64,000 nucleotides of DNA, taken from Hyphomicrobium sp. NDB2Meth4 (GTDB lineage Bacteria; Pseudomonadota; Alphaproteobacteria; Rhizobiales; Hyphomicrobiaceae). The notes beneath the pieces were generated by a model. It saw only the letters and a program-made list of their open reading frames with translations. It did no database searches and was not told the origin of the DNA. The stretch is taken from NCBI RefSeq assembly GCF_900117445.1, contig NZ_FPEJ01000005.1, forward strand, positions 310,001 to 374,000, read 5' to 3'. This document shows positions 1-20,543 of the stretch, in pieces (the stretch's first letter is position 1; the number at the start of each line of letters is the position of its first letter). Both the position numbers and the translations under genes were made by a program.

Positions 1-706
1 GCACCGCAGCCGCCGCAGCCAACGCAGCCCTTCCGCCAGCGTCGCATAACGTCACCACGCTGTCGTCGGCTCGCCCGCCGGCGCGCTCCATGAGTTGTAC
101 GAGATCCTCGGGCGAGCGAATGCGACCGTCGCGAAGCAAAGATGCATGAGGCACATGTCTCGCCCCTGGCAAATGTCCGCCGCGATCATTCTGCCGCAGA
201 TCTTCGCCGTCGTACTCAGCGCGTGTCCGCACATCTACAATGGCAACATCCGTTTCCAGCGCATCTCTTAGATCAGAGCGGCTGATCAGCTTCACAACCT
301 CACCAGCACCCTGAAGATCACCCGCTGAAGACGGCACCGGAGCACCAGCAATCTTATCATGTAGCGCCTCGATCGCCGGCCATCCGCCATTGACGATCCG
401 CGCTTCAATGCCGAAGTGCTGCAGGATCAGCCATGCGCGAGACGCTTCGATCAACCGGCCATCATCGTAGACGACGACAGGACGCTGGCCATCGATCCCG
501 AGCCTGGCGAACTCGCCTCGCCAGTAGTTCCCATCATCGAGCGCATCCTCAGTGGAGCGCGCTTTTGGCTCCCAGACCTCAACGGGAATGCGCCGGGCGT
601 TCTTGACGTGGCCATCTTCGAATACACCGAAGGAGCGGGCATCACAGACATATACTTCGCCCAGCCCGACAACAGCGGACGCATCGATGAAGGGGTCATT
701 TGACAT
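1..706 (-). CDS. Tandem-domain rhodanese (thiosulfate/3-mercaptopyruvate sulfurtransferase), 3' end cut
   Basis: The gene runs off the left edge; 235 residues are visible. Two rhodanese domains are present. The first (about residues 7-115) has an Asp (VVVYDDG) where a catalytic Cys would sit, as is usual for the inactive half. The second (about 140-235) carries the active loop LCDAGGRAA with Cys221. The start ATG follows GGAG with a 7-nt gap. Rhodaneses of this class move sulfane sulfur from thiosulfate or mercaptopyruvate to a thiophilic acceptor. Its place beside sulfonate, cysteine desulfurase and cysB genes suggests a role in sulfur relay. Thiosulfate and mercaptopyruvate specificity cannot be told apart from the sequence. 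Confidence 0.88.
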   Translation of the reverse strand, partial: MSNDPFIDASAVVGLGEVYVCDARSFGVFEDGHVKNARRIPVEVWEPKARSTEDALDDGNYWRGEFARLGIDGQRPVVVYDDGRLIEASRAWLILQHFGIEARIVNGGWPAIEALHDKIAGAPVPSSAGDLQGAGEVVKLISRSDLRDALETDVAIVDVRTRAEYDGEDLRQNDRGGHLPGARHVPHASLLRDGRIRSPEDLVQLMERAGGRADDSVVTLCDAGGRAALAAAAAV

Positions 707-1178: not shown

Positions 1179-1448
1179 ATGTTGACGATCGAAGACTATT
1201 GGATCACCTGGATCATCGTCGGCAGCCTCTCAGGCACCGTCTCGTCTTTCACACTTCGCAGTGATGAAGTCTACTATGCCCGCATGATCGATGGCATCCT
1301 CGGCGCCTGCGTAGGCGGCGAGATCATTCGCCGATGGGATCCTCTGCTTGTCACCGCCACCACCGGATTGGTCACAGCCGCCGTGACCAGCGCTCTCTTC
1401 CTTTTGGTAATCAGCCGGCTTCGCCGCTTGCGGGCCCTACACCGGTGA
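1179..1448 (+). CDS. Small membrane protein, function unknown
   Basis: This is an 89-residue protein starting MLTIEDYW. It has a hydrophobic stretch near residues 7-18, a glycine-rich middle segment (DGILGACVGG) and a clear transmembrane helix near the C-terminus (VTAAVTSALFLLVISRL) followed by a basic tail. The glycine-rich middle resembles small transglycosylase-associated (YeaQ/GlsB-like) membrane proteins, but the match is weak. The frame stays open upstream to 1026; I prefer the ATG at 1179 because the upstream part overlaps the terminator and looks non-coding. The 3' end overlaps the convergent flavoprotein gene by 12 bases. Confidence 0.5.
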   Translation: MLTIEDYWITWIIVGSLSGTVSSFTLRSDEVYYARMIDGILGACVGGEIIRRWDPLLVTATTGLVTAAVTSALFLLVISRLRRLRALHR

Positions 1449-2810
1449 GGTCGCATGCGCGTTGACCAGTTGGTTCGCCAGAACAGCCGTCTGCTGGCGG
1501 ATATCGGGAATGCTGATCGACTCCCAGAATTGTCCGCGCGTCAGTGGACCGATCGCGTAGAGATCGCTCGCCGCCTCGCCTGCATCATCGATGAGTGCGC
1601 AGTCTCTATCTACTGCCAACCCGAAACCATGGCGTCCGGTCCGAGCAAGTCCCTGTGTGAGCAGGCTTTGCAGGACCGGATTATTCGACTGCGCCGGATC
1701 GAGCTCGAAGCCTCTGCAATCAATGATCCCTTGAACAACGAGCTTTTGCTCGAAGTCCGTCCCACGACCACCGATTACGACCTCCGCCGCCTCACCAATG
1801 TCGGACACCGATTGCAGCCGGCCCGCGATCACACGCAGCCGATCCTCTCGCTGCAGCCGATCCAGCACGTTCGCAACGAAAGGTGCAAGGCGATGCCGAC
1901 GCACGTCGTATCTCGAACGCGCGTGGCGGATGAAGCGAGCCTGCTCCGCATCGGATAGACTCTGCCAGAGCTCTTGAGCATGCGGCCGTAAGCCATCAAG
2001 GACTGCGCGCCAATCAGATCCGGCACTTTCCGCCTGCTTGGCGAGAATGCGGACCCAGCGCCATACCGCGCTCAATCTCGCCCCGAATGGAACCTCTCGC
2101 GCATCGATACGCGCCGGCTCGACAGGCTTGTGCACCGACGGCATGAAGCCGTGACGCGACAGCAACGTGATCCTGCCGCGATACCCCGCAGCTAGCAGAA
2201 GCTGCACGTGATCAATTGCCGAGTGCCCGGTGCCCAGGATCAGCACATCCTGCACCGATGCGAGCGCATCCGTATCGATGGGCGCCCACGCCAGCCATTG
2301 ATGCGGAAAACGGTTCTGAGGCTTCACGCCGTAGCCGGTGGCCAGAACGACGGCGTCGCCCGCAATCTGCCGCCCGTTCTCCAGTCCGACAACTACGCCC
2401 GAAGCCGTCCGTTCGAGCGAGGTCGCGAGCCCGTGAATGGTCTGCAACCTGTCACGTCCCAATGGAGACAGCGTCAGCGCGTCCAGCTGCTCCGCTAGAT
2501 ACCGTCCGTAGATCCTGCGCGGCACGAACCGGAAACGCCCCTCACCTGTTACGTTCTCTGTGCTCGAAGTTCCATCGAGCCAATCGAGCAGGTGATCCGG
2601 AACGTCCAGGTAAGCGCTCATGTTCGCTGCGCGAACGTTGAGCAAGTGAAACGGCGCGGCTTCACCATAGGCAAAGCCACGCGCGAGAAGAGGGCGTGAC
2701 TCGATGAGCGTGGCAGTCACTCCACCGCTCGCACGCAGCAGGTTCAGGGCAAGCAGCGCACCGCTAGCGCCACCGCCGACGATGATAATATGACGAATGG
2801 CTACCCCCAT
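1437..2810 (-). CDS. FAD/NAD(P)-binding oxidoreductase of the sulfonate operon
   Basis: This 457-residue protein starts MGVAIRHIIIVGGGASG, a classic GxGxxG dinucleotide-binding motif, and has a second one near residues 180-190 (LILGTGHSAID). The fold resembles the NAD_binding_9 (HI0933/lycopene-cyclase-like) flavoproteins, whose substrates are mostly unknown. It begins 8 bases after ssuB and so is the last gene of the ssuD-ssuC-ssuB unit. That position suggests a redox role in sulfonate use, perhaps supplying reduced flavin or acting on the desulfonation product; this is inference. A TTG two codons upstream is an alternative start. No ssuE-type NAD(P)H:FMN reductase is visible nearby. Confidence 0.75.
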   Translation of the reverse strand: MGVAIRHIIIVGGGASGALLALNLLRASGGVTATLIESRPLLARGFAYGEAAPFHLLNVRAANMSAYLDVPDHLLDWLDGTSSTENVTGEGRFRFVPRRIYGRYLAEQLDALTLSPLGRDRLQTIHGLATSLERTASGVVVGLENGRQIAGDAVVLATGYGVKPQNRFPHQWLAWAPIDTDALASVQDVLILGTGHSAIDHVQLLLAAGYRGRITLLSRHGFMPSVHKPVEPARIDAREVPFGARLSAVWRWVRILAKQAESAGSDWRAVLDGLRPHAQELWQSLSDAEQARFIRHARSRYDVRRHRLAPFVANVLDRLQREDRLRVIAGRLQSVSDIGEAAEVVIGGRGTDFEQKLVVQGIIDCRGFELDPAQSNNPVLQSLLTQGLARTGRHGFGLAVDRDCALIDDAGEAASDLYAIGPLTRGQFWESISIPDIRQQTAVLANQLVNAHATSPV

Positions 2811-2818
2811 GCCCAAGC

Positions 2819-3619
2819 TTAGACTTGCTCGAGGATCTTCGATTGCAGCGCAACGATCGCAGCGTCTGAGCGCCGGCGCGGTCGCGGGATGGTGATCGGA
2901 ACATCGTAGGTGATCTGCCCATCCCTGATCACCACGACGCGATCCGCGAGCAATACGGCCTCAGACACATCGTGGGTAATAAGCAGTGTCGTAAACCCGT
3001 GTTGCAGCCACAGCCGCTCCAGCAGAGCGTGCATGTCGCTGCGGGTCAATGCGTCGAGGGCACCGAACGGCTCATCGAGAAGCAAGATGGACGGATGGCT
3101 GACAAGAACGCGTGCCAGCGCTACACGCTGGCGCTGGCCGCCCGACAGCACCGCCGGCCAATCGCTCTGACGATCGACAAGACCCACATCACCAAGCGCG
3201 GCCAGGGACGCCTCGCGCCACCCAGGGCGGCGGGCGATCCCGACATTGTTCAGGACGGTCTGCCAGGGGAGCAGGCGCGCATCCTGGAAGAGAAGCCGCA
3301 CGGACGGCTGCAAGCCATTAACAGGCACCCCATCGATGCGAACCTCGCCCGCGCCGGGTTTATCCAGACCGACGATGAGCCGCATAAGCGTTGACTTCCC
3401 GACACCCGAGCGCCCCACGACAGCAACGAACTGCCGCGCGGGGATGTCCAACGTCAGGCCATTGAGAACTTTCCGCTCGCCGAAGGCGACGTGCAGTCCG
3501 TCCAGACTGAGGGGGCGCCCCAAGGCGGCGTCGGCATCCACCACCGGCGCGACGTCGCTCGACACCGGCTCTTGTGTGACTTCGACGCGCTTCAGCGCCG
3601 GTGACGTTGAATTTCCCAA
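2819..3619 (-). CDS. ssuB: Aliphatic sulfonate ABC transporter ATP-binding protein
   Basis: ATPase subunit that powers sulfonate import through SsuC. The Walker A motif (GRSGVGKST), Q-loop (LLFQDARLLPW), signature (LSGGQRQRVALARVL), Walker B (ILLLDEPFGALD) and H-loop (LLITHDVSEA) are all intact. The frame is open to an ATG at 3778, but that would overlap ssuC by over 150 bases. A TTG at 3619 lies 8 bases after GGGAGG and just past the ssuC stop, giving a 266-residue protein, normal for the family. It is transcribed with ssuD and ssuC. Nitrate/taurine-type ATPases look similar; the SsuD neighbour decides the assignment. Confidence 0.88.
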   Translation of the reverse strand: MGNSTSPALKRVEVTQEPVSSDVAPVVDADAALGRPLSLDGLHVAFGERKVLNGLTLDIPARQFVAVVGRSGVGKSTLMRLIVGLDKPGAGEVRIDGVPVNGLQPSVRLLFQDARLLPWQTVLNNVGIARRPGWREASLAALGDVGLVDRQSDWPAVLSGGQRQRVALARVLVSHPSILLLDEPFGALDALTRSDMHALLERLWLQHGFTTLLITHDVSEAVLLADRVVVIRDGQITYDVPITIPRPRRRSDAAIVALQSKILEQV

Positions 3620-3623
3620 CGCC

Positions 3624-4424
3624 TCAGCCTCCCGCACTTCGCGCGGAATGATAGGCCGGGTGCCACGCCAGCATGCGGTGCTCCAGCGACTTGGTAACGA
3701 CATCAGCCGCCTTGCCGAGTAGGGCATAGACAAGAATACCGAGCACCACGACATCGGTCTGCAGGAACTCACGCGCATTCATCGTCATATAGCCAATGCC
3801 CGAGGACGCAGCGATCGTTTCGGCCACGATCAATGTCAGCCACATGATCCCCAGCGCGTAACGCAAACCAACGAGAACGGACGGCATCGCCCCCGGCAGC
3901 ACCACCCGCCAGAATACGGCGGCACGCCCCAATCCATTCACCCGTGCCATTTCAATGAGGCCGTGGTCGACCGTGCGGATCCCGTGGAACGTATTCAGAT
4001 AAACAGGGAACAGGGTACCGATCGCAACGAGGAACACCTTTGCCGTCTCATCGATGCCGAACCAGAGGATGACCATCGGTATGACAGCGAGGTGCGGCAC
4101 GTTGCGAAACATCTGCAATGCAGAGTCGAGCAGCAGCTCGGCGTGTCGCGACGTGCCGTTCAGCACCCCAAGCGCAAAGCCGAGCCCGCCGCCAGCAAGA
4201 AGACCAAGCAGCGCACGCTGGAAGCTGATCCCGACATGGTGGAACAACATTCCACTGGAAACGGTGTCCCAGAAGGCGACGGCGACCTGTGTCGGTGCGG
4301 GCAGCACGCGCTGCTCTATCCAACCACTCCGCGCCGCCACCTCCCAGAGCACAACAAGACCGAGTGGAACGAGCCACGGAGCCAGCCGCTCGAGTGAAAG
4401 CCTGTCCGCCCAGCGATGCTTCAT
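3624..4424 (-). CDS. ssuC: Aliphatic sulfonate ABC transporter permease
   Basis: This 266-residue inner-membrane protein has about six transmembrane helices. The EAA-type coupling segment for the ATPase is seen around [21 protein letters not shown], and the C-terminal half is typical of BPD_transp_1 permeases of the Ssu/Tau/Nrt group. Its ATG overlaps the ssuD stop in an ATGA arrangement, indicating translational coupling. With SsuB and the divergently encoded SsuA it forms a complete importer. Confidence 0.88.
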
Positions 4425-5593
4425 GACTGTCCCACCCGGAGCGCACCCGGAAGCTGATCGTTGGCGACGGTTTCACCAACAGGTCCCCCGCGGCGCTGAT
4501 CCTGCAGCGGCGAGGAATGCGCCAGCGGCAGAAGCGGGAAGACCAGCTCGGCAAAGCGATACGCTTCTTCCAGATGCGGATATCCGGAGAAGATGAACGT
4601 ACTGACGCCCACGCGCATGTATTCCTTGATGCGCTCTGCGACAGTTTCCGGGTCGCCTACCAGGGCCGTACCGGCACCGCCGCGCACGAGACCGACACCC
4701 GCCCACAGGTTCGGACTGACTTCGAGCTTGTCCCGCCTCCCCCCGTGCAGCGCGAGCATTCGCTTCTGCCCAACGGAATCCATTCGCGCAAAAGTCTCCT
4801 GCGCGGACGCCAGCGTTGCATCATCAAGATGCTTGAGCAGATTGTCTGCCGCGCGCCACGCCGCATCGTTCGTCTCGCGCACGATCACATGCAGCCGGAT
4901 GCCGAAATCGAGCTTGCGCCCGCGCTGCGAAGCTGCCGCCTGCACGACTTCAAGCTTCTTTGCCACCTCCGCAGGGGGCTCACCCCACGTGAGGTAGGTG
5001 TCGACGGTCTCTGCAGCGACGGCAATTCCTGCATCGGACGAACCGCCGAAATACAGCGGCGGATGCGGCCTCTGCAGCGGCGGAAACAGCAGGCGGCCGT
5101 CCTCGATCTTTATGTGACGCCCCTCGTAGTCAACGCGCCCGCCCGCCAGCAGACATTTGTACACGTCGAGAAATTCCTTCGTGACGACATAACGTTCGTC
5201 ATGCGGGAGAAAAATGCCGTCGCCCTTGTTCTCGACAGGGTCCCCACCCGTGACGACGTTGATGATGAGGCGACCGTCACTGATACGATCGAGCGTCGCC
5301 GTCATCCGCGCAGCCACTGCCGGTGACAGCAGCCCGGGCCGCACAGCGACAATGAGGCGCAAATTCCGGGTGCGCGGCGCGATAGCCGACGCGATCACCC
5401 AGGAATCCTCGCAGCTCCGTCCCGTTGGCAGCAGCACACCGCGATAGCCGAGCCTATCAGAGCCCTCTGCCACCTGCGTCAGATACGAGAGGTCGACTTC
5501 GCGCCCACCAACCGCAGAGCCCAGATATCGTCCATCGCCGTGCGTCGGCAAGAACCAATGGACATGCGCCTTTTCCGCAGCAGCGACACCCAC
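4421..5593 (-). CDS. ssuD: FMNH2-dependent alkanesulfonate monooxygenase
   Basis: It releases sulfite from alkanesulfonates using reduced FMN and O2 in the cytoplasm. The N-terminus [14 protein letters not shown] and the segment [14 protein letters not shown] are hallmark SsuD sequences of the bacterial luciferase-like family. The frame is open to an ATG at 5683, but homology begins near residue 35 of that reading. A GTG at 5593 lies 7 bases after GGGAG and gives 390 residues, close to the family length of about 380. It heads the operon ssuD-ssuC-ssuB-flavoprotein. The partner flavin reductase SsuE is not in the window. Confidence 0.9.
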
Positions 5594-5843
5594 GATCAGA
5601 CTCCCTTTGTGATCGACGTCACCCCAACCAAGCACGGCCGACCAGCGCGCCTCACCGACGCGCCGATCGACCAGCGTCCCCATGAAGCGCGTTATCGAAC
5701 AACTGGCACAGGCTGCACAAACAAGAAGATTCGAAATCTATTTCCGATTTTCATATTGGAGCAGCCGGCCCACTTCATCGCACTTAAGTCACGTGATGCT
5801 CGCCAGCTTCGTGGCGAGCCGCGAATGACGAAGGGGACCTAGG
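5594..5843. promoter_or_regulatory. Divergent promoter region of ssuDCB and ssuA
   Basis: This 250-base non-coding region separates the two halves of the sulfonate system. It includes an AT-richer stretch (about 5720-5760) with a TTCGAA-centred near-palindrome at 5728-5738, and CGTTATCG at 5690-5697, similar to a sequence upstream of the encapsulin gene. Control by the CysB-type regulator at 12.9-13.8 kb is plausible. The ssuA ribosome-binding site is AAGGGG, 7 bases before the ATG. Confidence 0.45.
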
Positions 5844-6818
5844 ATGAAAGTGCTTTCTCTCACGCGCGGCATCGCTGCAGTTGCCGCACTCTTTACGGCA
5901 GCTGCTGCAGTTCACGCAGCTGATGCGCCGAAGCAGGTACGCATCGGATATCAGAAGTCATCAACGCTCATAAACGTACTGCGCACCAACGGAGAACTCG
6001 AGAAGGCGCTGGCCGACGCTGGCTATAGCGTCTCCTGGTCAGAGTTTCCGAGCGGTCTGCCGTTGCTCGAAGCCCTCAACGTCGGCGCTGTGGATCTTTC
6101 CGGCGACGTAGCCGACACCGTGCCCGTCTTTGCGCAGGCCGCAGGCGCCAAGCTTACCTACGTCGCTACCGAGGCACCATCTGCCTCAGCCCAGGCATTG
6201 CTGGTCAAGGCCGACTCACCGGTCAAGAGTGTTGCCGATCTCAAGGGCAAGAAGGTCGCGGTGACGAAGGCCGCGGGCAGCCACTACCTGCTCATCGCGC
6301 TGCTGAAGAAAAGCGGATTGAAGTTTTCCGACATCACGCCGGCATTCCTCACTCCCGCCGATGGGCGCGCAGCATTCGAAACGGGTGCTGTCGATGCCTG
6401 GGTAACGTGGGATCCGTTCGTTGCGGCCGCGCAACAGCAATCCAAGGTCCGTGTCATTGCCGATGGCAAGGGCGTCGCCGACTATCAGCGCTACTATCTC
6501 GCATCCGCTGCCTTTGCAGCCGAGCATTCGGACGTTCTGCGGCTCGTATTCGACAAGCTGCGGCAGACTGGCAAGTGGATCAAGGCCCACCCCGATGACG
6601 CTGCCAAGGTTCTCGGACCGGCATGGGGCTTGAAGCCAGAGATCGTCAAAGCAGCCAACAGTCGGCGCAGCTACGATGTGCAGGCCGTAAAGGAGCAGAA
6701 CCTCGGCGAAGTCCAGAAGATTGCCGACGCGTTCTTCGCCGAAGGCGCTCTGCCGAAAAATATCGTGGCAAGCGAAGCCCACATCTGGTCGCCCGACAAG
6801 CAGGCGTCAACGCGCTAG
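5844..6818 (+). CDS. ssuA: Aliphatic sulfonate-binding periplasmic protein
   Basis: This 324-residue protein has a clear Sec signal peptide (residues 1-25, AAAAVHAADAP) followed by a periplasmic binding fold of the SsuA/TauA/NMT1 type: IGYQKSSTLINVL near residue 35, then KGKKVAVTKAAGSHYLL and VDAWVTWDPFVAAA. It captures sulfonates for the SsuBC importer. It is transcribed away from ssuDCB and toward the encapsulin genes, with 282 bases in between. Confidence 0.88.
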   Translation: MKVLSLTRGIAAVAALFTAAAAVHAADAPKQVRIGYQKSSTLINVLRTNGELEKALADAGYSVSWSEFPSGLPLLEALNVGAVDLSGDVADTVPVFAQAAGAKLTYVATEAPSASAQALLVKADSPVKSVADLKGKKVAVTKAAGSHYLLIALLKKSGLKFSDITPAFLTPADGRAAFETGAVDAWVTWDPFVAAAQQQSKVRVIADGKGVADYQRYYLASAAFAAEHSDVLRLVFDKLRQTGKWIKAHPDDAAKVLGPAWGLKPEIVKAANSRRSYDVQAVKEQNLGEVQKIADAFFAEGALPKNIVASEAHIWSPDKQASTR

Positions 6819-7100
6819 GCGCGTGTCGTGCCTCGCAAAAAGGTGGGGCACGCCAATCGTCTATGGCCATCAACCTCAGACATCACTGCACGTCAGCCAT
6901 CAAACGTTGCTCCGTTATAACGAAGGAAAGCGACGGCATCGCCATAGACTTCGTTGCGCGGGCCCGCGAGCGGAATGTAAATCCGCAATCGCCAACCGCA
7001 TTGCAAATTCTATCCCGTCTCGCGCTAGGCGTTATCCGCGCGCACAGGCCAAGCGGCCGGCGCGCAGGCACGTCGCATCAGAATTCGAAAGAGGACCATC
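6819..7100 (+). promoter_or_regulatory. Upstream region of the encapsulin operon
   Basis: This gap has no credible reading frame. It carries a perfect palindrome CGTTATAACG at 6913-6922. Sequences with GTTAT or its complement also occur near cysB and in the ssu divergent region, which makes this a candidate operator for the sulfur regulator. The encapsulin ATG is preceded by AGAGGA at normal spacing. I see no strong terminator after ssuA, so read-through from ssuA is possible. Confidence 0.35.
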
Positions 7101-8048
7101 ATGGCCGACGAAGGTCGCGGTACACTTGCAGAGGGCGCAGCAAGACAATTAGCCAACGCGACGAAAACCCGTGCCCAGTGGGGCGGAATTACGCCGCGAT
7201 GGCTCATTCCGTTTCTGCCTTGGACGCCCGTCGAAGCAGGCATCTACCGCCTCAATAAGGTGAAGGAGACGCGCGGGGCAACGTCGGCCAAATCATCTGA
7301 TGTCGAGTGCAGCCCACCGCGCGACCGCGACGCGGCACTGCCCGAAACGTTCGTCGATTACGAGGACAATCCGCGCGAGTACTTTCTCAACGCGGTGACC
7401 ACGGTGCTCGATGTTCAGACGCGCGTCTCCGACCTCTACAGTCACCCGTTCGATCAAATCCAGGAGCAGTTGAGGCTGCTGATCGAGAAGGTGAAGGAGC
7501 GCCAGGAAAGCGAACTCATCAATAACAAGGAGTATGGCCTCATCGCCAACTGCGCTGCCTCCCAGCGCATCTCCACGCGCTCTGGCGCGCCGACGCCGGA
7601 CGACCTCGACGAGCTGCTGACAAAGGTTTGGAAAGAGCCGTCGTTTTTCCTCGCGCATCCCCGTGGCATCGCCGCGTTCGGTCGCGAATGCACGCGCCGT
7701 GGCGTTCCACCGCCCACCGTGACCCTGTTCGGCTCGCCGTTTCTCACCTGGCGCGGCATTCCGCTGGTGCCCTCCGACAAGGTGCCGCTGACGGCAACGG
7801 GCAAATCGAAATTCCTTCTCCTGCGCACCGGTGAGAAGAAGCAAGGTGTCGTCGGCCTCTTCCAGCCCGGCGTTCCCGGCGAGGTATCACCCAGCCTCTC
7901 CGTACGCTTCATGGGCATCGACCGGCGCGCGATCGCCTCCTACCTGATCTCGCTCTATTGCTCGCTCGCCGTGCATACGGAAGATGCGATCGCGGTTCTG
8001 GATGATGTCGAGGTGGCGAAGTATCATGACTATCCCTCAGCAAAGTGA
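7101..8048 (+). CDS. Family 2A encapsulin shell protein (SrpI-like)
   Basis: This 315-residue protein closely follows the cyanobacterial SrpI/family 2A encapsulin pattern as I remember it. The N-arm is ARQLANATKT, followed by ITPRWLIPFLPWTPVEAGIYRLNKVK, TFVDYEDNPREYFLNAV, KERQESELINNKEYG, GAPTPDDLDELLTKVWKEP, RECTRRGVPPPTVTLFG and a C-terminus ending near VAKYHDY. These proteins have an HK97 phage-capsid fold and self-assemble into closed nanocompartments. Family 2A members are known to package cysteine desulfurases, and the next gene, overlapping by 23 bases, encodes exactly that. Compared with SrpI there is a short insertion near residues 58-72. Sulfur limitation induces SrpI; the sulfonate genes and cysB in this island fit that. 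Confidence 0.93.
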   Translation: MADEGRGTLAEGAARQLANATKTRAQWGGITPRWLIPFLPWTPVEAGIYRLNKVKETRGATSAKSSDVECSPPRDRDAALPETFVDYEDNPREYFLNAVTTVLDVQTRVSDLYSHPFDQIQEQLRLLIEKVKERQESELINNKEYGLIANCAASQRISTRSGAPTPDDLDELLTKVWKEPSFFLAHPRGIAAFGRECTRRGVPPPTVTLFGSPFLTWRGIPLVPSDKVPLTATGKSKFLLLRTGEKKQGVVGLFQPGVPGEVSPSLSVRFMGIDRRAIASYLISLYCSLAVHTEDAIAVLDDVEVAKYHDYPSAK

Positions 8049-10071
8049 CCTGATGGGCGGACCGGCGATGGTCGAGGCGTCGTCCGGTCCGGGCGATGCC
8101 GCTAGCTACGCGCCACCGCCGAACGTTCCCGATGCGGCTACGATCGCGCGGCTGGCAAATGCGTTCTACGCAGCCCCGCCCTCCCCGCCGCTACCGGGGC
8201 CGGGTGCGGCGTTGCCTTCCGCTCCCGTGTTCGCCGCCGAGCCGCTCTACAATTCCATTCCCGGAACGCCGGCGCTGACACTGCCTCTGTCTCCCAATCT
8301 CAATCCGGGCCTGCCGCCGGTGCCGATGCCCTCATCGGGCGCAGCACAGCCATCGGCACATGTGTTCGCGCTCGAGCCGCTGGTGGCGCAGGTGCAATCG
8401 CCGGCCTCTCCTCCTACGGTTACGCCGCAAGCCGAAAATGTCGGACGCGGTGACTCGCCCGGCGCTCCCGTTGCAATTGCGGCTTCGGAAGCGCCCGCAA
8501 CAATGGGGGCCGACCCGAACTTTGCCTCGCTGCCGTTCTCACTGGGCGATGCTCTCGCGTTCGTTCCAAGCTTCGATGATGTCGCGAGCCCTTACGGGCC
8601 CGGCACGCTGAGCGGTCCAGCCGAGAACTCCGCGGTTCCCGGCAGCACGTACTCATTCCTTGAACGCGGCGCTCCCTCAGCGTTCGACCCGACGCCGCCA
8701 ACCGCTGCGCCAGCTAAGCCCAATCCCAGCGCGAACCTGCCGTTTGCATACCAGGCTTCAGTGCTCGATCTTACGGCGCTCGGCTATCAGCATCGTTCCG
8801 ACCTCGGCGTGCCGGCGACTGGCATAACCGGTGTGCGCCCATTCGACCCTCGTGCGATCCGGCGCGATTTTCCGATCCTGCAGCAGAACGTCAACGGCCG
8901 GCCCCTGGTCTGGCTCGACAACGGCGCCACCACGCAGAAGCCCCAGAGCGTGATCGATCGGCTCGTCTACTTCTACGAAAACGAGAACTCCAACATCCAC
9001 CGTGGCGCCCACACGCTGGCCGCGCGCTCTACCGATGCATATGAGGCGGCGCGCGCCAAGGTGCGTGCGTTTATCAATGCGCCCTCGCCCGATAGCATCA
9101 TCTTCGTGCGCGGTACGACCGAGGGCATAAACCTCATCGCCAAGGCGTGCGGTGGCCGCAACGTCGGCGAGGGCGACGAAATCGTCATCACGCACCTAGA
9201 GCACCACGCCAACATCGTTCCCTGGCAGCAACTTGCCGCCGAAAAAGGCGCCGTGTTGAAAGTGGCGCCGGTCGACAACTCCGGACAGATCATTCTCGCG
9301 GAGTACGAGAAGCTGTTCACGCCGCGCACACGCGTTGCGTCCATGACTCAAGTCTCGAACGCGCTCGGCACCGTTGCTCCCATCGCCGATATGGTTGCCA
9401 TCGCACACCGCCATGGCGCAATCGCGATCGTCGATGGCGCGCAGTCGGTCTCGCATATGCCGATCGACGTGCAGGCCCTCGATGCGGACTTCTTCGTGTT
9501 TTCCGGTCACAAGATGTTCGCCCCGACCGGTATCGGTGCGGTGTACGGGCGCCCCAGCATCCTTGAAGCGATGCCACCCTGGCAGGGCGGCGGCAACATG
9601 ATCCAGGACGTCACCTTCGAGAAGACGACGTTCCACGGCGCACCGGCGCGCTTCGAAGCCGGCACTGGCAACATTGCGGACGCCGTGGGTCTCGGCGCGG
9701 CGATCGACTATCTCATGACCATCGGCATGAGCAACATCGCCGCGTACGAGCACGAGTTGCTCGGCTATCTAACGCAAGGGCTATTGAGCGTTCCGGGTCT
9801 GCGCATCATCGGGACGGCGAACGAGAAGGCAGGCGTCGCCTCGTTCGTGCTTGACGACTGCAGGGTGGAAGACGTCGGCAAGGCGCTAGCGGCCGAGGGC
9901 ATAGCGGTGCGTGCCGGCCATCACTGCGCGCAGCCGATCCTGCGCCGCTTCGGCCTCGAGGCGACAGTGCGGCCCTCGCTCGCGTTGTACAACACCACCG
10001 ATGATGTCGATGCGTTGGTGACGACGTTGCTGCGGATCCAGTCCGGACGGGGCAAGCGCGGCACTAAATAG
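8026..10071 (+). CDS. Encapsulated cysteine desulfurase with disordered cargo-targeting domain
   Basis: This is a PLP enzyme that takes sulfur from L-cysteine, giving alanine and enzyme-bound persulfide. The catalytic part (about residues 272-681) is SufS-like: PLP lysine K496 in VFSGHKMFAPTGIG, substrate region THLEHHANIVPWQ, and catalytic Cys634 in VRAGHHCAQP. The first ~250 residues are low-complexity, rich in Pro, Ala and Ser, and not part of the enzyme fold, as expected for the cargo domain that docks family 2A desulfurases inside encapsulins. This domain holds a repeated element (residues 60-75 and 105-119). The ATG at 8026 overlaps the shell gene by 23 bases; an in-frame ATG at 7984 is less likely. 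Confidence 0.92.
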   Translation: MTIPQQSDLMGGPAMVEASSGPGDAASYAPPPNVPDAATIARLANAFYAAPPSPPLPGPGAALPSAPVFAAEPLYNSIPGTPALTLPLSPNLNPGLPPVPMPSSGAAQPSAHVFALEPLVAQVQSPASPPTVTPQAENVGRGDSPGAPVAIAASEAPATMGADPNFASLPFSLGDALAFVPSFDDVASPYGPGTLSGPAENSAVPGSTYSFLERGAPSAFDPTPPTAAPAKPNPSANLPFAYQASVLDLTALGYQHRSDLGVPATGITGVRPFDPRAIRRDFPILQQNVNGRPLVWLDNGATTQKPQSVIDRLVYFYENENSNIHRGAHTLAARSTDAYEAARAKVRAFINAPSPDSIIFVRGTTEGINLIAKACGGRNVGEGDEIVITHLEHHANIVPWQQLAAEKGAVLKVAPVDNSGQIILAEYEKLFTPRTRVASMTQVSNALGTVAPIADMVAIAHRHGAIAIVDGAQSVSHMPIDVQALDADFFVFSGHKMFAPTGIGAVYGRPSILEAMPPWQGGGNMIQDVTFEKTTFHGAPARFEAGTGNIADAVGLGAAIDYLMTIGMSNIAAYEHELLGYLTQGLLSVPGLRIIGTANEKAGVASFVLDDCRVEDVGKALAAEGIAVRAGHHCAQPILRRFGLEATVRPSLALYNTTDDVDALVTTLLRIQSGRGKRGTK

Positions 10072-10989: not shown

Positions 10990-12045
10990 ATGGTCCTTCA
11001 TCGCACTAGAGTTGGCGCAAGCATCGCCATCGCGGCACTCGCCGTCGCAGCATTCGCCGCAGTGGCGAGCGCTCAGGAACAGAAGCCCGCTGAACCTGCC
11101 GCGACACCAGCTTCTGCCAACGTGTTGCTGAACGCATCTTACGACGTCTCGCGGGAGCTCTATAAAGACATCAACGCTGCCTTCATCGCCGACTGGAAGA
11201 AGAAGACGGGTGAGCCCGTCACCATCAACCAGTCTCACGGCGGTTCGACCAAGCAGGCTCTCGCTGTGATCAATGGTCTGGACCCTGACGTCGTAACATT
11301 CAATCAGGCGCCCGATATCGACATCCTGGTCAAGCCGGGGCTTGTCTCGGCCGACTGGCGCAAAGCGTTCCCGAACGATGCTTCGCCCTACACCTCCACA
11401 TCAGTGTTCCTCGTCCGCAAGGGTAACCCCAAGGGCATCAAGGACTGGGATGATCTAGCCAAGTCCGGCATCAGCGTCATCGTCCCCAATCCCAAGACGT
11501 CCGGCAACGGACGTTACACCTACCTTGCGGCGTGGGGCTATGGCCTGAAGAAGTCGGGCAACGAGGCGGGCGCGCGGGGCTTCGTATCAAAGGTGTTCGC
11601 CAACGTGCCTGTGCTCGACGGCGGAGGACGCGGTGCAACGACCACCTTCACCCAGCGCAATACCGGCGATGTGCTCGTCACTTTCGAGAGCGAGGCTAAG
11701 CTGATCGGCAAGGAGCTGGGAGAGGATAAGTTCGATATCGTCTACCCGTCCGTGAGCATCGTTGCCGAGCCGCCTGTGGCGATCGTCAATCCGGTGGTCG
11801 ATAAACGCGGCACCCGCAAAATCGCCGAGGCGTATCTGAACTTCCTCTATTCGCCCGAGGGACAGAGGATTATCGCCAAACACGGGCTGCGTCCGCGCAA
11901 CGCTGAGGTTCTCAGCGCGAACGCGACTGAGTTCCCGGTGATCGAGACGTTCCGCGTCGAGGACCTGCTCGGAGGTTGGGAGGCAGTCAAGAAGCAGCAC
12001 TTCGCCGACGGCGCGACCTACGATCAGATTACGATCAAACAGTGA
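10990..12045 (+). CDS. sbp: Periplasmic sulfate/thiosulfate-binding protein
   Basis: This 351-residue protein has a Sec signal peptide (about residues 1-29) and the Sbp/CysP fold: LLNASYDVSRELYKDINAAF, the sulfate-contact segment NQSHGGSTKQA, VIVPNPKTSGNGRY and DVLVTFESEAKLIG. It binds sulfate or thiosulfate for a CysTWA importer. No cysT, cysW or cysA is present in the window, so this is an orphan copy that must dock with a transporter encoded elsewhere. The ATG follows a purine-rich GGGAGGGGGG. Sbp and CysP cannot be separated with certainty by eye. Confidence 0.88.
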   Translation: MVLHRTRVGASIAIAALAVAAFAAVASAQEQKPAEPAATPASANVLLNASYDVSRELYKDINAAFIADWKKKTGEPVTINQSHGGSTKQALAVINGLDPDVVTFNQAPDIDILVKPGLVSADWRKAFPNDASPYTSTSVFLVRKGNPKGIKDWDDLAKSGISVIVPNPKTSGNGRYTYLAAWGYGLKKSGNEAGARGFVSKVFANVPVLDGGGRGATTTFTQRNTGDVLVTFESEAKLIGKELGEDKFDIVYPSVSIVAEPPVAIVNPVVDKRGTRKIAEAYLNFLYSPEGQRIIAKHGLRPRNAEVLSANATEFPVIETFRVEDLLGGWEAVKKQHFADGATYDQITIKQ

Positions 12046-12098: not shown

Positions 12099-12671
12099 TC
12101 AGATGGCGCGTGCCAGATGCGGGGTCTCGCGCAATGCGAGCTGCGGCATCCTCGTCTGCGCCGAAGAACGGAGCCCGTCAAGGAGTCGCAGAGCTTGCGG
12201 CCACGGGCCAAAGCCGCTCGCCGGATCCACACATCCGGCACGGCCCAGTTCAATCAGGTCGCAGCTCCAGTAGTTCGCCCAGAATGCTGCTTTACTCGAT
12301 CTCAGATAAGGATCGTTGCTACTCGCGGCGATCGCTGCGGGAAATGGCAGCGGCTCCTCGGGTAGCATCCACGCCAACCGCAATGCGTCCGCATCGAACG
12401 GCGCCACGAGAAGTGCGCTGGCAACGCGACCCGGACAATCCATCGATGCCCGCAACGCTGCCAAGCAGCCAAACCCGTGCGCAACCACGGTCGCAGGCTC
12501 GGCGCACTTGCTGATCTCTGCCCTCACTGCAGATGACCATTCGAGCAGGTCGAGAGAGCTTAGGTCTTTCTGAGTAACGCGGCGCGTGTCGGGAAGGACG
12601 CCTTCGATCCAACGGAGCCAGTGACCGGCGCCGCCGCCGTCAAGGCCAGGAACTACGAGAGTGGTCGTCAT
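12099..12671 (-). CDS. RBBP9/YdeN-family alpha/beta-hydrolase, apparently inactive
   Basis: This 190-residue protein belongs to the RBBP9/YdeN serine-hydrolase family: VVPGLDGGGAGHWLRW near the N-terminus, ASSNDPYL and ASGFGPWP near the end. Two of three expected catalytic residues are missing. The nucleophile elbow reads VAHGFGCLA with Gly66 in place of Ser, and the position of the usual His in GHIN reads GCVD with Cys147. Asp120 is kept. The ATG at 12671 follows GAGG with 7 bases. It may be a pseudoenzyme with a binding or regulatory role. It sits between sbp and cysB, and relatives often occur near sulfate genes. Confidence 0.8.
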   Translation of the reverse strand: MTTTLVVPGLDGGGAGHWLRWIEGVLPDTRRVTQKDLSSLDLLEWSSAVRAEISKCAEPATVVAHGFGCLAALRASMDCPGRVASALLVAPFDADALRLAWMLPEEPLPFPAAIAASSNDPYLRSSKAAFWANYWSCDLIELGRAGCVDPASGFGPWPQALRLLDGLRSSAQTRMPQLALRETPHLARAI

Positions 12672-12860
12672 GGTGATGCCTCGCGTAGTGAGCGTTTTGT
12701 CCTCAGTCTTCGCTAACCATCCCCTGGATTGACATTCCCTGTTTGAAGTTCTGCACGCCAGCCTACGCCGGCAATGCCACGCGGCAACCAAGAATTCAGA
12801 ATGTCCATATTCCAATTCCTGATGTCGCGAGGATCATTCTACGCCTGCCGCGGCGCTCAA

Positions 12861-13799
12861 CTATGCTCCTGACGTCGTCTCACCTTTGACAACGGCGCGC
12901 AGTCTCTTCTCGCTCAGCTGCGGCGAGCACATGCTTATGAAGTTATATATGAACCCGCGGAGATAGCGGCCACGACGGACAGCGAGACTGGAGGTGTTCA
13001 CCTCGAAAAGATGGCTGCAGTCGAGCTTTCGCAGTCCTACATCTCGCCCGGCATCGAATGCCATTCCCGCCATGATGCCGACGCCGAGCCCCAGCTCCAC
13101 GCATGATTTAATGACGTCGGCATCGAGCGCAGTAATCGCGATATCGGGTTCGACGCCGGACCCTGCGAACGCGGCGTCAATGCGTGCGCGCCCCGTAACT
13201 CCATCGTCGTAAGTGATAATGGGCCACTCAGCGATCGCCGCCAGTGTCAGCGGTCGCACCTGTTCCAGAGGATGCCCAACCGGCACTACCGTGACGTGTT
13301 CCCACTGCACATAAGGAAACGCTGCGAGGCCGGCATGCCCCTCGAGGGTATCGGTTGCAAGCCCGATATCCGCCTTGCCGTCGAGCAAAATGCCCGCGAT
13401 CTCCTTGGCGTTAGCCTGATGCAAGACCAGCCTCACTTGTGGATGGGCCTGCGTGAACTTGGCGAGCACGGGCGGCAGTGCATAGCGCGCTTGCGTATGT
13501 GTCGCCGCAATTCGCAGAGTGCCATCCTCGCCGTCGGCGAGGCGCGCGCCTACCTGCGCCAGGTTATCGACGTCGATCAAAATGCGCTCAATGATCTGCA
13601 GCGCTTCGGCCCCAGCATCGGTCAGGCGGAGCAGCCGCTTGCCCTTGCGCACAAACAGCTCAAGTCCAAGTTCGTCCTCCAGATCCTTGACGTGCTTACT
13701 GACGCCCGACTGGGACGTCAAAAGCACGTTCGCGACCTCGGTCAGATTGAAATTGCACCGCGCGGTCTCGCGCATGATGCGAAGCTGTTGAAAGTTCAT
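12861..13799 (-). CDS. cysB: CysB/Cbl-type LysR regulator of sulfur assimilation
   Basis: This 312-residue protein starts MNFQQLRIMRETARCNFNLTEVANVLLTSQSGVSKHVKDLE, nearly the textbook CysB helix-turn-helix region. The rest is the effector domain (IAATHTQARYALPPVL, then SCVELGLGVGIMAG). CysB proteins activate sulfate and sulfonate genes when cysteine is low, sensing acetylserine, sulfate or thiosulfate. The gene is transcribed toward the hydrolase-like gene. Placed at the edge of the sulfur island, it is the obvious candidate to control ssu, encapsulin and sbp transcription. CysB and its paralog Cbl cannot be told apart here. Confidence 0.9.
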   Translation of the reverse strand: MNFQQLRIMRETARCNFNLTEVANVLLTSQSGVSKHVKDLEDELGLELFVRKGKRLLRLTDAGAEALQIIERILIDVDNLAQVGARLADGEDGTLRIAATHTQARYALPPVLAKFTQAHPQVRLVLHQANAKEIAGILLDGKADIGLATDTLEGHAGLAAFPYVQWEHVTVVPVGHPLEQVRPLTLAAIAEWPIITYDDGVTGRARIDAAFAGSGVEPDIAITALDADVIKSCVELGLGVGIMAGMAFDAGRDVGLRKLDCSHLFEVNTSSLAVRRGRYLRGFIYNFISMCSPQLSEKRLRAVVKGETTSGA

Positions 13800-14259: not shown

Positions 14260-16644
14260 TTACTTCGACACGCGTCGATCCGCGATGGCGCGCGCTGCGG
14301 CGATAACGGCTTGGCCAAGAGCGATGCCCCCATCGTTGGCCGGCACGCGCTGCGGGGTTAGGACGTCGACACCGCCAGCGCGCAGCCGCCGCGTGGTCTC
14401 AGCTAGTAGCAACCGGTTCTGCATAGTGCCGCCCGAGAGCACCACCCGACGGATTCGCCGCCGACGGGCGATGTCGAGGCCGAGCCGCGCGGTTCCATCC
14501 GCTAGTCCAATGTGAAAGCGCGCGGCGATCACCTCGCGCGAGACGCCGGCCGCGACATCGTCCAGCAGCGCGCGCCATAGCGCGCCCCAACCGATGACCT
14601 GCGGTGAACTGCCTTCGATGTCGACGTGATAGCCCGCGCCGGCCTCCTGCAGCCCGCCCTCGGCGAGCACTTCGAGCTCGATGGCCGCCTGCCCCTCATA
14701 AGACACGCCAGCCGTGCAGACGCCGAGCGTTGCTGCCACGGCATCGAAGAGCCTTCCCGCGGAGCTAGATAGCGGCGCGTTGATGCCGCTATTCAGCATC
14801 TTCCTCAGGACGCCTGCCTGCCGCGCGCCCACGTGCCGTACGATCTTAAGGTCAGGAAAACGCGCGGCGACCTCGTCCCAACCGATGAACCGCTCCAAGT
14901 GGGCAAACGCGTTTCGCCACGGCTCTCGCATTGCCTTGGCGCCCCCCACAAGCGCGACCGGTGCGAAACGCGCCAGCCGTTCATAACCTGTGTAGGTGCA
15001 AACCAAGAAATCGCCGCCCCACAAGGCGCCGTCATCTCCAAAGCCAAGCCCATCGAGAACGATCCCCAGTACCGGCGGATCCGAGAGTGGCGCCCCGTGT
15101 TCAGCGAGGCACGCTGCGACGTGCGCGTGATGATGCTGCACCTCGGCGAGCGTGGCACGCTCGTCGGCAGCGATGTTGCGTCCCCAACGGGTCGACAGGT
15201 AATCCGGATGAAGATCGACTGCGACAATATCGGGATCGAAGTCATAGAGCTGCCGATAGAGCTTCAGCGCGGAACGGTAGTCGCTATGGGTCTCTGCATT
15301 CTCGAGATCGCCGATGTGCTGGGAAAGTACAGCCTCTCCGCTGCGCAGGATGCAAAACGTGCTCTTCAGCTCCGCCCCCATTGCGAGGACGCGCGGAACT
15401 CCGGAAAATCCCTGAGGGAGTCGAATGGGTTCGGGCGCATACCCCCGTGCGCGACGTACAATCACCGGCGTGCCGTCAATGACCCGAGCCACGGAGTCAT
15501 CCAGCCGATTGACGATGTCACGATCATGCATCAGCCAGAAGTCGGCGACACCCATGAGGCGCGAGCGGGCTTCAGCATTCTGCGTGCATTGAGGCTCGTC
15601 GCTTCGATTGCCGGAGGTGAGCACGATCGGGCGGCTAAGCGTTTGCATCAATATTTGATGCAACGGCGTATAAGGCAGCATGAACCCAAGGCTCGATTGC
15701 CCGGGAGCCACGCTCGCCGCCAATGTTTCTGCGCGCGGTCTCTTATCGAGCACGACGATTGGCGCCGCTGAGCTATGCAGCAGCCGCGCTTCCGCCGGTC
15801 CAAGCAGAGCATAGCGTGAAATGGCGTCCTCGCTTGACGCCATGACCGCAAATGGCTTGTGATAGCGATGCTTGCGCAATCGCAAGCGAGCGACGGCCTC
15901 CTCGTTAGCGGCGTCGCACGCCAGATGAAAGCCGCCTATGCCTTTAATGGCGACGATGCTTCCGTCGCTGATTAGACGTGCAGTCGCAGCAATTGCGTCC
16001 TCTCCAGGCCTGCGGTTGACCTCCTGACCCGTTGCATCCTCGAGCCAAGCGCGCGGACCGCACTGCGGACAGGCAATCGGCTCGGCGTGGAATCGACGGT
16101 CGGCGGGATCCTCGTATTCACGCCTGCAACTGTCACACATCGCGAACGCGGCCATTGATGTCGCCGCGCGATCGTAAGGGATTGCGCTCACGATCGACAG
16201 CCGCGGACCGCAGTGCGTGCAATTGGAGAATGGGTAGCGATAGCGCCGGTCCGCGGCGTCGAACACTTCCTCTAGGCATGCCGGACACGTGGCGGCATCC
16301 GCAGCGACCCCCGTCGCCACTGCCGCCCGCTTGCTTTGCACGATGCTGAACGCGGCTGGCGCCGGCTTGTCGATGACAGAGAGATCCCGACGCTCGATCG
16401 CGTCGATCCGAGCGAGCGGCGGCGGCTCGGTCGAGAGCGCCGCTTCGAAGCCCACCAAATCGTCCTCCTGACCCCAAGCGCGGATCAGCACGCCCTCGCC
16501 ATCGTTCAGGACCTCGCCCGTAAGGCCGAAGCGCCGTGCCAACCGCCAAACGGTGGGACGAAATCCAACGCCCTGCACCAGGCCACGCACGCGGATCACC
16601 ACCCCGCGAATATCATCTCGTCGATCATGCGAGGCGACTTCCAC
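14260..16644 (-). CDS. hypF: [NiFe]-hydrogenase maturation carbamoyltransferase HypF
   Basis: HypF makes the carbamoyl adenylate used to build the CN ligands of the hydrogenase iron and transfers the group to HypE. Visible domains in order are an acylphosphatase domain (VRGLVQGVGFRPTVWRLA), paired zinc fingers (CPACLEEVFD, CTHCGPR, CDSCRREY, CPQCGPR), a YrdC domain and a Kae1-like carbamoyltransferase domain (HHHAHVAACLAEHG; VVLSGGTMQNRLL). I chose the GTG at 16644, 6 bases after AAGGAG and just past the hupV stop, giving 794 residues. An ATG at 16680 would overlap hupV. It is the last gene of the hup/hyp run. Confidence 0.92.
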   Translation of the reverse strand: MEVASHDRRDDIRGVVIRVRGLVQGVGFRPTVWRLARRFGLTGEVLNDGEGVLIRAWGQEDDLVGFEAALSTEPPPLARIDAIERRDLSVIDKPAPAAFSIVQSKRAAVATGVAADAATCPACLEEVFDAADRRYRYPFSNCTHCGPRLSIVSAIPYDRAATSMAAFAMCDSCRREYEDPADRRFHAEPIACPQCGPRAWLEDATGQEVNRRPGEDAIAATARLISDGSIVAIKGIGGFHLACDAANEEAVARLRLRKHRYHKPFAVMASSEDAISRYALLGPAEARLLHSSAAPIVVLDKRPRAETLAASVAPGQSSLGFMLPYTPLHQILMQTLSRPIVLTSGNRSDEPQCTQNAEARSRLMGVADFWLMHDRDIVNRLDDSVARVIDGTPVIVRRARGYAPEPIRLPQGFSGVPRVLAMGAELKSTFCILRSGEAVLSQHIGDLENAETHSDYRSALKLYRQLYDFDPDIVAVDLHPDYLSTRWGRNIAADERATLAEVQHHHAHVAACLAEHGAPLSDPPVLGIVLDGLGFGDDGALWGGDFLVCTYTGYERLARFAPVALVGGAKAMREPWRNAFAHLERFIGWDEVAARFPDLKIVRHVGARQAGVLRKMLNSGINAPLSSSAGRLFDAVAATLGVCTAGVSYEGQAAIELEVLAEGGLQEAGAGYHVDIEGSSPQVIGWGALWRALLDDVAAGVSREVIAARFHIGLADGTARLGLDIARRRRIRRVVLSGGTMQNRLLLAETTRRLRAGGVDVLTPQRVPANDGGIALGQAVIAAARAIADRRVSK

Positions 16645-16655
16645 GCTGCACTCCT

Positions 16656-18107
16656 TCAATGCACGGTACAGACCATGCAAGGGTCGAACGAGCGCACGAT
16701 GTGCTGAACGGCGACCGGCTCGATCTCTCCATCGCGTACGGGAGCGCCGACAAGCGCCTGCTCGCAGGCGCCGGGTACACCGGCGGCATCACGCGGCGAG
16801 AAGTTCCACGTGGTCGGCGCCACGATTTGATAGTTGGAGATACGGCCATTCTTTACGCTCAGCCAATGGCCAAGCGAACCACGCGCAGCCTCGATAAGCC
16901 CGACGCCCTCGGCGTTGGCCAGCGCCGGGGCATCGACGAAGAATGGCTCGTGCGGCGTGATCCTTTTCGCCCAAGCCTCCAGCGCCTGCACTACTCGCGC
17001 AATCTCGATCAGTCGCGCGATCACCCGATTGGCGACGTTGCCGCCGCTCCCCTGCACGAGATCGCGGATCAGGGGATGGTCGTCGACCACTTGTCGCGCA
17101 AGCGCGCCCACCTCGACCACCTGCCCCGCCAGACGCGGCGCCTTACACCATGTATAGGCGTCCTTTGCTTCGGCGTCGGGCATCGTCACGCCGCGCGAGG
17201 GATGTCGCGGTCCGTCACTGGGCGCAAACCAGCCGGACGATGAATCCTCGGTGATGCCTGCGGCATCGAACGCGAAATCGTTACCCTGTGCGTGCACGCC
17301 CTGCTTGAAGAGGAATGCATCGTCCAGCGCGTAGGCACCGTAGCTAAGGAAGCGATCTGTGGCACGGCCCATCGTATCGAGTGACAGTGCGTCGGCAAGC
17401 TTGAGGAAAAATCCGAAGTCGCTCGTTGCCGCTGGTTCGCGTTGCCGCCAGGCGTCGAGTTCGCCCTTAGAGCTCAGAGCCGTCACAGATTCGAGCCGAT
17501 CACCGAACATGCGCGTCTCGAGAAAGCGGCGAAAGGTGGCGAGCGATGCGAGCACGCGTACCTGAGCGGCACCATCGATCGAATGCGTCGTGCCTCCGGG
17601 CTGCAGTCCGAGGGTATGCGGCCAATGGCCGGCGAGCGTCCCCATAATGTGCATGAAGGCCGCACGAACGGGCAACACCTCCCGCGATGCTGCCCCTTCC
17701 ACGGCCTTGAAGCGCTTGACGACTTCAAGATGCCACGGCTCGTCGGCGTAAACAGGCCGCGCAAAGTCCGGCATGAAGAAGAGATAGAAGTGGGTGAAAT
17801 GGTCGGCGACGTTTTCCACTCCGAGAACGAGGTTGCGCATCAGCCGACCGTTCAAGGGAGGCTCGACGGAGCCGGCCTCAGCGAGGGCGATTGCCGCCGC
17901 CATGGATTGCGAAACCGAACAGATGCCGCAAATCCGCGGCGTGTATACGAGAGCGTCGCGCGGATCGCGCCCGCCGAGGATCTGCTCAAAGCCCCGATAA
18001 AGCGGTGAGTTGACCCAAGCTGCCTTCACCGAGCCTTGCTCGATGTCGAGCTTGATTTCCAGGTCCCCCTCGACGCGATTGAACGGCCCGACGATGCGAC
18101 GGCTCAT
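16656..18107 (-). CDS. hupV: Regulatory (H2-sensing) hydrogenase large subunit
   Basis: A 483-residue [NiFe] large subunit. N-terminal nickel ligands are C60 and C63 (RICGICSVSQS); C-terminal ligands lie in DPCMVCTVH. The protein ends exactly at this His, so it lacks the C-terminal peptide that proteases remove in energy-converting enzymes. That is diagnostic of the HupV/HoxC sensor class. With HupU it detects H2 and signals to HupT. The ATG overlaps the hupU stop (ATGA). A 571-residue upstream extension of the frame is not used. Confidence 0.92.
   Translation of the reverse strand: MSRRIVGPFNRVEGDLEIKLDIEQGSVKAAWVNSPLYRGFEQILGGRDPRDALVYTPRICGICSVSQSMAAAIALAEAGSVEPPLNGRLMRNLVLGVENVADHFTHFYLFFMPDFARPVYADEPWHLEVVKRFKAVEGAASREVLPVRAAFMHIMGTLAGHWPHTLGLQPGGTTHSIDGAAQVRVLASLATFRRFLETRMFGDRLESVTALSSKGELDAWRQREPAATSDFGFFLKLADALSLDTMGRATDRFLSYGAYALDDAFLFKQGVHAQGNDFAFDAAGITEDSSSGWFAPSDGPRHPSRGVTMPDAEAKDAYTWCKAPRLAGQVVEVGALARQVVDDHPLIRDLVQGSGGNVANRVIARLIEIARVVQALEAWAKRITPHEPFFVDAPALANAEGVGLIEAARGSLGHWLSVKNGRISNYQIVAPTTWNFSPRDAAGVPGACEQALVGAPVRDGEIEPVAVQHIVRSFDPCMVCTVH

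Positions 18108-19121: not shown

Positions 19122-19129
<8 letters not shown>
18104..19129 (-). CDS. hupU: Regulatory hydrogenase small subunit
   Basis: This 341-residue protein carries the iron-sulfur clusters of the H2 sensor. It starts MPDGASNRQRTLLWLQSGGCGGC with no twin-arginine signal, so it is cytoplasmic, unlike HupS. The proximal-cluster motif is C20-GG-C23 without the extra cysteines of the oxygen-tolerant uptake enzyme; oxygen tolerance in sensors comes from a narrow gas channel instead. Other cluster motifs include HGCARNEYYEY and CISCTEPGFEDP. It overlaps hupT by 8 bases. Confidence 0.92.

Positions 19130-20543
<1,414 letters not shown>

Follow-up and report, generated by a model that had tools for sequence, protein, structure and literature searches.

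The 64,000-nucleotide stretch of the Hyphomicrobium sp. NDB2Meth4 genome analysed here (contig NZ_FPEJ01000005.1, positions 310,001 to 374,000; hereafter the window) carries near its left end two overlapping genes that, judged by homology, encode a genuine family 2A encapsulin shell and its cysteine desulfurase cargo, a known kind of system. The pair lies among genes for sulfonate and sulfate uptake and is preceded by a candidate operator. Its features are as follows, in window coordinates.

6911..6924 (+), near-palindrome TCCGTTATAACGAA, candidate operator some 180 bases upstream of the shell start (upstream alignment, pattern scan)
7101..8048 (+), family 2A encapsulin shell protein, 315 amino acids (PF19307, NF041162, PDB 8t6r and 6x8m)
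8026..10071 (+), cargo cysteine desulfurase, 681 amino acids (NF041166, TIGR01979 SufS, 8kg1)
8026..8841 (+), N-terminal predicted disordered loading domain of the cargo, about residues 1-272 (model confidence, Pro/Ala-rich composition)
8125..8184 (+), conserved loading motif VPDAATIARLANAFYAAPPS, about residues 34-53 (sliding windows against shuffles)
8842..10071 (+), SufS-type catalytic domain of the cargo (H393, K496, C634)

The shell protein

The only Pfam family found in the shell protein at E ≤ 0.01 is the SrpI-like PF19307 (E = 7.5e-105), without the cyclic-nucleotide-binding domain that marks family 2B. The protein passes the NCBIfam family 2A model NF041162 (encap_f2a) with 517 bits against a cut-off of 380; it also passes the 2B model (427.4 bits, cut-off 400), but across the shared domain only. 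The closest solved chains by sequence are 8t6r (E = 2.1e-139) and SrpI, 6x8m (E = 9.2e-135), and a Foldseek search with the predicted shell structure returned the same two (E = 1.2e-23 and 6.4e-23), with template-modelling scores of 0.48-0.53. The SrpI-type family 2A assignment of the initial annotation is thus upheld. The nearest named relatives among the matches listed come from Hyphomicrobium BWSM_147 (95% identical) and H. sulfonivorans S1 (91%), and the shell search returned a single copy in the host genome, with no second encapsulin.

The system can be set beside three characterised ones. The shell is 69% identical (tblastn) to SrpI of Synechococcus elongatus PCC 7942, encoded on plasmid pANL, whose cargo CyD is likewise a desulfurase with a disordered loading domain and a LARLAN-type motif; according to the available text of PMC8049743, SrpI is induced by sulfate starvation and loads its cargo via the N-terminal domain. 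SrpI particles have a published size of about 25 nm. The surroundings differ: in Synechococcus, srpI is closely preceded by cysK and epsC and cyd is followed by a rhodanese gene, whereas in the window ssuA lies upstream of the shell and a sulfate-binding protein gene downstream. The nearest solved shell, 8t6r, is from Acinetobacter baumannii and is described as cargo-loaded; A. baumannii records are 69% identical to the window shell, which differs from 8t6r by an insertion near residues 55-72. Benisch et al., in 2024, reportedly described an A. baumannii family 2A encapsulin with desulfurase-class cargo and elemental sulfur storage. The Mycobacterium smegmatis Mmp1 system (8wol, 8kg1) also resembles the window pair (shell E = 1.5e-121) but is actinobacterial.

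The cargo desulfurase and its loading domain

The cargo open reading frame opens mechanically at 7984; we place the probable start at 8026, an in-frame ATG, which gives an overlap of 23 bases with the shell gene. The protein passes NF041166, the family 2A cargo desulfurase model, with 821.4 bits (cut-off 800) and scores 555 bits against TIGR01979 (SufS), in agreement with the overlapping SufS-like desulfurase first proposed. The best structural match of its catalytic part is the M. smegmatis cargo desulfurase 8kg1, at 65% identity in the structural alignment. The catalytic cysteine, the pyridoxal phosphate lysine and the histidine of SufS are all present (C634, K496 and H393); they align with C364, K226 and H123 of E. 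coli SufS and are invariant in 38 sequences.

The N-terminal region is of low complexity (18.8% proline, 17.7% alanine), as the initial annotation had noticed, with a length nearer 272 residues than the 250 it gave. The predicted local distance difference test (pLDDT) score is mostly below 50 there, except for a helix at residues 37-49, the sole N-terminal helix above 60, which coincides with a motif conserved among related cargos. In 84-99% of 73 related cargos, twelve-residue windows starting at residues 33-42 score above all 20 shuffles, a level that no other window starts in the region reach. These windows contain IARLANAFYAAPP, which corresponds to LARLANEFFS of Synechococcus CyD as given in the accessible part of PMC8049743. 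Farther along, residues 205-215 (PGSTYSFLERG) resemble, by eye, the second published motif, of the AASPYYFLDG type. Curated models, solved homologues and the conserved loading motif together bear out the earlier view that this is the known cargo architecture.

The host genome holds 12 Aminotran_5 matches, 10 of them above the cut-off; no second cargo was found in it, a 33-residue piece around the loading motif matching this cargo alone. An apparent fusion of cargo and FAD/NAD protein in locus L034 was rejected as a record artefact, the 1073-residue reading frame crossing a stretch of N and being shifted in frame after it.

Sulfur genes around the shell in the window

The genes on either side of the pair are listed below.

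1..706 (-), two-domain rhodanese, cut by the window edge (full length L110:13919-14707)
1437..2816 (-), FAD/NAD(P)-binding protein (PF13454)
2819..3778 (-), SsuB-type ATPase (PF00005)
3624..4424 (-), SsuC-type permease (PF00528)
4421..5683 (-), SsuD alkanesulfonate monooxygenase (TIGR03565, 611.6 bits, cut-off 518.2)
5844..6818 (+), SsuA-type sulfonate-binding protein (TIGR01728, 199.6 bits, cut-off 163.5)
10990..12045 (+), orphan sulfate-binding protein (TIGR00971, 426.9 bits, cut-off 155.5)
12099..12815 (-), serine hydrolase (PF06821), a second copy, the first adjoining the other sulfate-binding protein
12861..13799 (-), CysB-family LysR regulator (NF009327, 397.4 bits, cut-off 402)

All four ssuDCBA components expected from the initial annotation are located in the window, and SsuD, single-copy in the host genome, lies 1.4 kb from the shell. 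Because the scanned window proteins included no recognisable flavin reductase, the FAD/NAD(P)-binding protein is a possible partner in sulfonate oxidation. In L093 and L034, relatives of this protein adjoin both a shell and Ssu-type genes, and in Azospirillum (L124) annotation places such a gene in the same setting.

The sulfate-binding protein had been called an orphan, and so it is, the transporter genes accompanying the other copy in the genome. That copy, 57% identical, stands in an operon with a serine hydrolase, two permeases, an ATPase and a second CysB-family gene (names from our own reading and tblastn); the window repeats three of these genes (sulfate-binding protein, PF06821 serine hydrolase and CysB-like regulator) without the transporter. 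Two identifications of the initial annotation needed softening. The rhodanese is a two-domain protein at the window edge, but its best specific NCBIfam model, 3-mercaptopyruvate sulfurtransferase, stays below cut-off (82 of 250 bits); the presumed cysB just misses the NF009327 cut-off and is best called CysB-family-like.

Some further observations concern the same neighbourhood. The PF06821 serine hydrolase is paired with a sulfate-binding protein in both host operons (the second at L111:8789-9481, minus strand), and its cluster occurs in 5 of the 80 related loci described below. Between the cargo and the sulfate-binding protein lies a HAD-type hydrolase (PF08282, 10101-10883, plus strand), of which no relatives were found in 15 loci searched or in its cluster. 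At 14260-19210 (minus strand) the window encodes HypF and a nickel-dependent hydrogenase large subunit, with what looks like the small subunit at 18104-19210.

Sulfur-gene linkage across genomes

The shell family occurs in 12 of 100 relatives and, class-wide, in 6 of 385 genomes (4 above cut-off), the host being included in both counts. A genome scan gave at least 578 confirmed relatives, of which the best 80, with flanks of up to 10 kb, were used as related loci. A serine acetyltransferase of one of two types is present in 55 of these, a cysteine-synthase-like gene in 19, a rhodanese in 17, a sulfate-binding protein and an SsuA-type binding protein in 14 each, a CysB-family gene in 8 and, by clustering, SsuD in 7; these counts are lower bounds, because flanks often end early. 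One representative each of the acetyltransferase, synthase, rhodanese and MetB clusters was checked with Pfam; the EpsC type has only a hexapeptide match there, and its name rests on the annotation of L126 and L127.

Linkage was assessed in 48 of the 80 loci, hand-picked for long flanks, with SsuD copies counted genome-wide (42, after six matches at 39-41% identity had been dropped beforehand). SsuD lies near the shell in 7 of the 48 genomes against 0.17 expected (Poisson P = 8.5e-10), and treating three Aquitalea as one leaves five lineages (P = 1.2e-6); apart from that merging, the statistics ignore kinship among genomes. The choice of the 48 favours this result, since all seven SsuD-bearing loci of the 80 fall inside it, although the excess would remain with all 80. 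For the sulfate-binding protein, 9 of 48 genomes have a copy near the shell against 0.34 expected (P = 1.3e-10; 78 copies), and the negative control HypF gave 0 of 48 against 0.16 expected. The tie of the shell to sulfur scavenging is therefore supported across genomes. A possible encapsulin-specific clade of sulfate-binding proteins was dropped, as in L072 the linked copy is the 57% identical one and a 72% copy lies elsewhere in the genome.

Comparisons within the genus sharpen the picture. Four congeneric genomes with the window's shell type were compared: all have a cysteine-synthase-like gene upstream of the shell and three a sulfate-binding protein downstream, the fourth contig ending inside the cargo. 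H. sulfonivorans S1 (L015) and BWSM_147 (L014), the close relatives named above, share a form of the palindrome upstream of the shell but differ from the window in having the cysteine-synthase-like gene upstream and no ssu in the stretch. Another Hyphomicrobium, L093, has a shell 72% identical to that of the window and from the other main clade of the tree; the branch separating that clade has 100/100 support, and L093 itself sits on a long branch. Its shell adjoins SsuA, SsuD, SsuC, SsuB, an FAD/NAD protein, CysB, a sulfate-binding protein and an acetyltransferase. Taken with the window, this means that two shell lineages in one genus share sulfur-gene company, and the position of Hyphomicrobium shells in two main clades of the tree suggests at least two acquisitions.

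A candidate operator and an XRE-cupin regulator

An alignment of shell-upstream regions revealed a conserved dyad, represented in the window by TCCGTTATAACGAA, where the two strand-wise matches are of one site; the first pattern was expected 0.33 times in 64 kb. The symmetrised form is TYCGYTATARCGRA, whose fit to the sites is partly built in, the pattern having been set after some of them had been seen. At up to one mismatch it occurs upstream of the shell in 9 of the 80 loci, giving 9 occurrences in 34.8 kb of shell-upstream sequence and none in the other 1,355 kb, and at two mismatches it occurs 11 times upstream of shells and 27 times elsewhere. A wider locus set gave 13 palindrome rows, with L102 repeating L014, where shuffled palindromes gave 0-8 matches; a match in L101 was discounted because it overlaps the shell start codon. 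Among 19 further shell loci (two mismatches), five have a site 124-257 bases upstream and two at 14-15 bases, and three sites lie elsewhere; of these loci, L116-L118 repeat L119-L121, L122 repeats one of the 80, and several are kin of the defining loci. With two mismatches allowed, no palindrome site was found in the SrpI, Variovorax and Methylosinus OB3b loci. A role as a general CysB site found no support: in the window and in the genome stretch around the second sulfate-binding-protein operon, the only match lay before the shell.

Relatives of an XRE-cupin regulator lie near shells in 10 of the 80 loci, mostly those that bear the palindrome: the site is found in 7 of the 10 loci with a linked XRE-cupin gene against 2 of the 70 without (Fisher P = 1.3e-6, related loci counted singly). 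The host copy (HTH_3 plus Cupin_2) lies just left of the window, beside the rhodanese (G000:C15:309003-309671, equivalent to L110:13004-13672, minus strand). The sulfur-linked regulator SutR (YdcN) of E. coli is of the XRE-cupin type. The host XRE-cupin regulator may bind the palindrome.

An enzyme-free loading-domain gene in methanotrophs

Six of the 38 genomes of a single methanotroph family match a protein of about 380 amino acids that resembles the loading domain (one cut by a contig end, one partial). The protein, disordered and about 360-390 amino acids long, contains motifs of the LANALF and YYFLE types and matched nothing in Pfam or NCBIfam. Its gene directly follows the shell in all six cases and precedes the desulfurase in the five where the contig continues. 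Such genes lie at L055:3681-4814 (+) and L054:5888-7027 (+), and also in L119, L120, L121 and L122, the last being cut short.

Discussion

We think it likely that the window encodes a family 2A encapsulin nanocompartment that holds a desulfurase and banks sulfur as a reserve, in a sulfur-scavenging context. In this model, which draws on published relatives, the shell protein would assemble into a hollow particle and the short helix in the disordered N-terminal domain would draw the desulfurase inside, where it would strip sulfur from cysteine, with the shell retaining sulfur or polysulfide. Shell and cargo genes would be read as a unit from their own promoter region, a local regulator probably binding the palindrome at 6911-6924, and would be expressed together with the sulfonate and sulfate uptake genes, so that sulfur may flow from sulfonate to cysteine and from there to the store. 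Sulfur storage itself we infer for the window system by analogy.

Several results weigh against parts of this interpretation. The shell model is weak, with a mean pLDDT of 53.5, and the HK97-fold call is therefore carried by sequence homology; structure prediction of both proteins, the check proposed at the outset, found encapsulins by Foldseek and brought out the cargo disorder and its helix, but left the shell at this low confidence. The first loading motif varies in its details, as a strict regular expression for it picked up just 27 of 74 cargos, and the second published motif is weakly matched, windows there exceeding shuffles in at most 34% of the 73 relatives. A scan for sigma-70 promoters and terminators gave nothing above shuffles, and the window shell has neither a serine acetyltransferase nor a cysteine synthase as its neighbour. 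No Ssu gene was seen in the four congeneric genomes that carry this shell type, in stretches of up to 20 kb, of which two reached a contig end or were covered on a single side; the ssu adjacency in the window may thus be local. The tie to sulfur physiology made in the initial annotation accordingly holds in its broader form, through the cross-genome linkage of SsuD and the sulfate-binding protein, but not as a constant ssu adjacency within the genus.

This bears directly on the idea that the neighbourhood is incidental, the compartment serving a general redox or cysteine-detoxifying role without co-regulation with ssu or the sulfate-binding protein. Besides the same-genus relatives, that idea can draw on the palindrome, which stands before the shell only and was found neither before ssuA/ssuD nor before the sulfate-binding protein or the second sulfate-binding-protein operon. 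We nevertheless consider it improbable, as Ssu genes and the sulfate-binding protein are linked to the shell in separate lineages much more often than expected, a negative control having been included. Somewhat more plausible, though still unlikely, is a compartment with a delivery rather than a storage function, the desulfurase inside passing persulfide through the pores to the rhodanese or another carrier for cofactor synthesis. Such channelling was proposed by Andreas and Giessen (PMC8346489, in the portion available), and the text available of Nichols et al. (PMC8049743) leaves delivery and storage both open. The two-domain rhodanese starts about 6.4 kb to the left of the shell, and rhodanese genes recur in the related loci as counted above; the window rhodanese, however, lies outside the shell operon and falls below the cut-off of its best specific model, and a later paper (PMC12407261), in its accessible passages, refers to desulfurase systems of family 2 as stores of sulfur. 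The notion that the shell gene is a prophage capsid remnant has in its favour the HK97-type fold and weak Foldseek matches to phage capsids, yet the top seven Foldseek matches are family 2 encapsulins, the encapsulin model is passed, the scanned neighbours are metabolic and the cargo pairing is kept in relatives, so that we regard this notion as refuted in practice, with a negligible chance of being right.

Building on the storage interpretation, we put forward a wider proposal that is possible rather than probable. In it, one large, mainly alphaproteobacterial family 2A clade would be switched by the operator TYCGYTATARCGRA via the linked XRE-cupin regulator, and the compartment would form a sulfonate and sulfate scavenging module in Hyphomicrobium and several other lineages, banking sulfur derived from organosulfur compounds. 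The enzyme-free loading-domain copy of some methanotrophs might itself be cargo, a scaffold or a nucleator.

Desulfurase encapsulins are widespread, and their cellular role is only partly worked out. In the open-access literature searched we found no statement of a sulfonate link or a shell operator, and no description of an enzyme-free loading-domain gene; the operator and that gene are the parts without description there. The window adds a desulfurase encapsulin in a methylotroph genus, and the analysis proposes for the system a concrete sulfur source, sulfonates, and a concrete switch, the palindrome with its candidate regulator. The enzyme-free gene, in turn, offers a way to probe whether the loading domain has a role beyond addressing.

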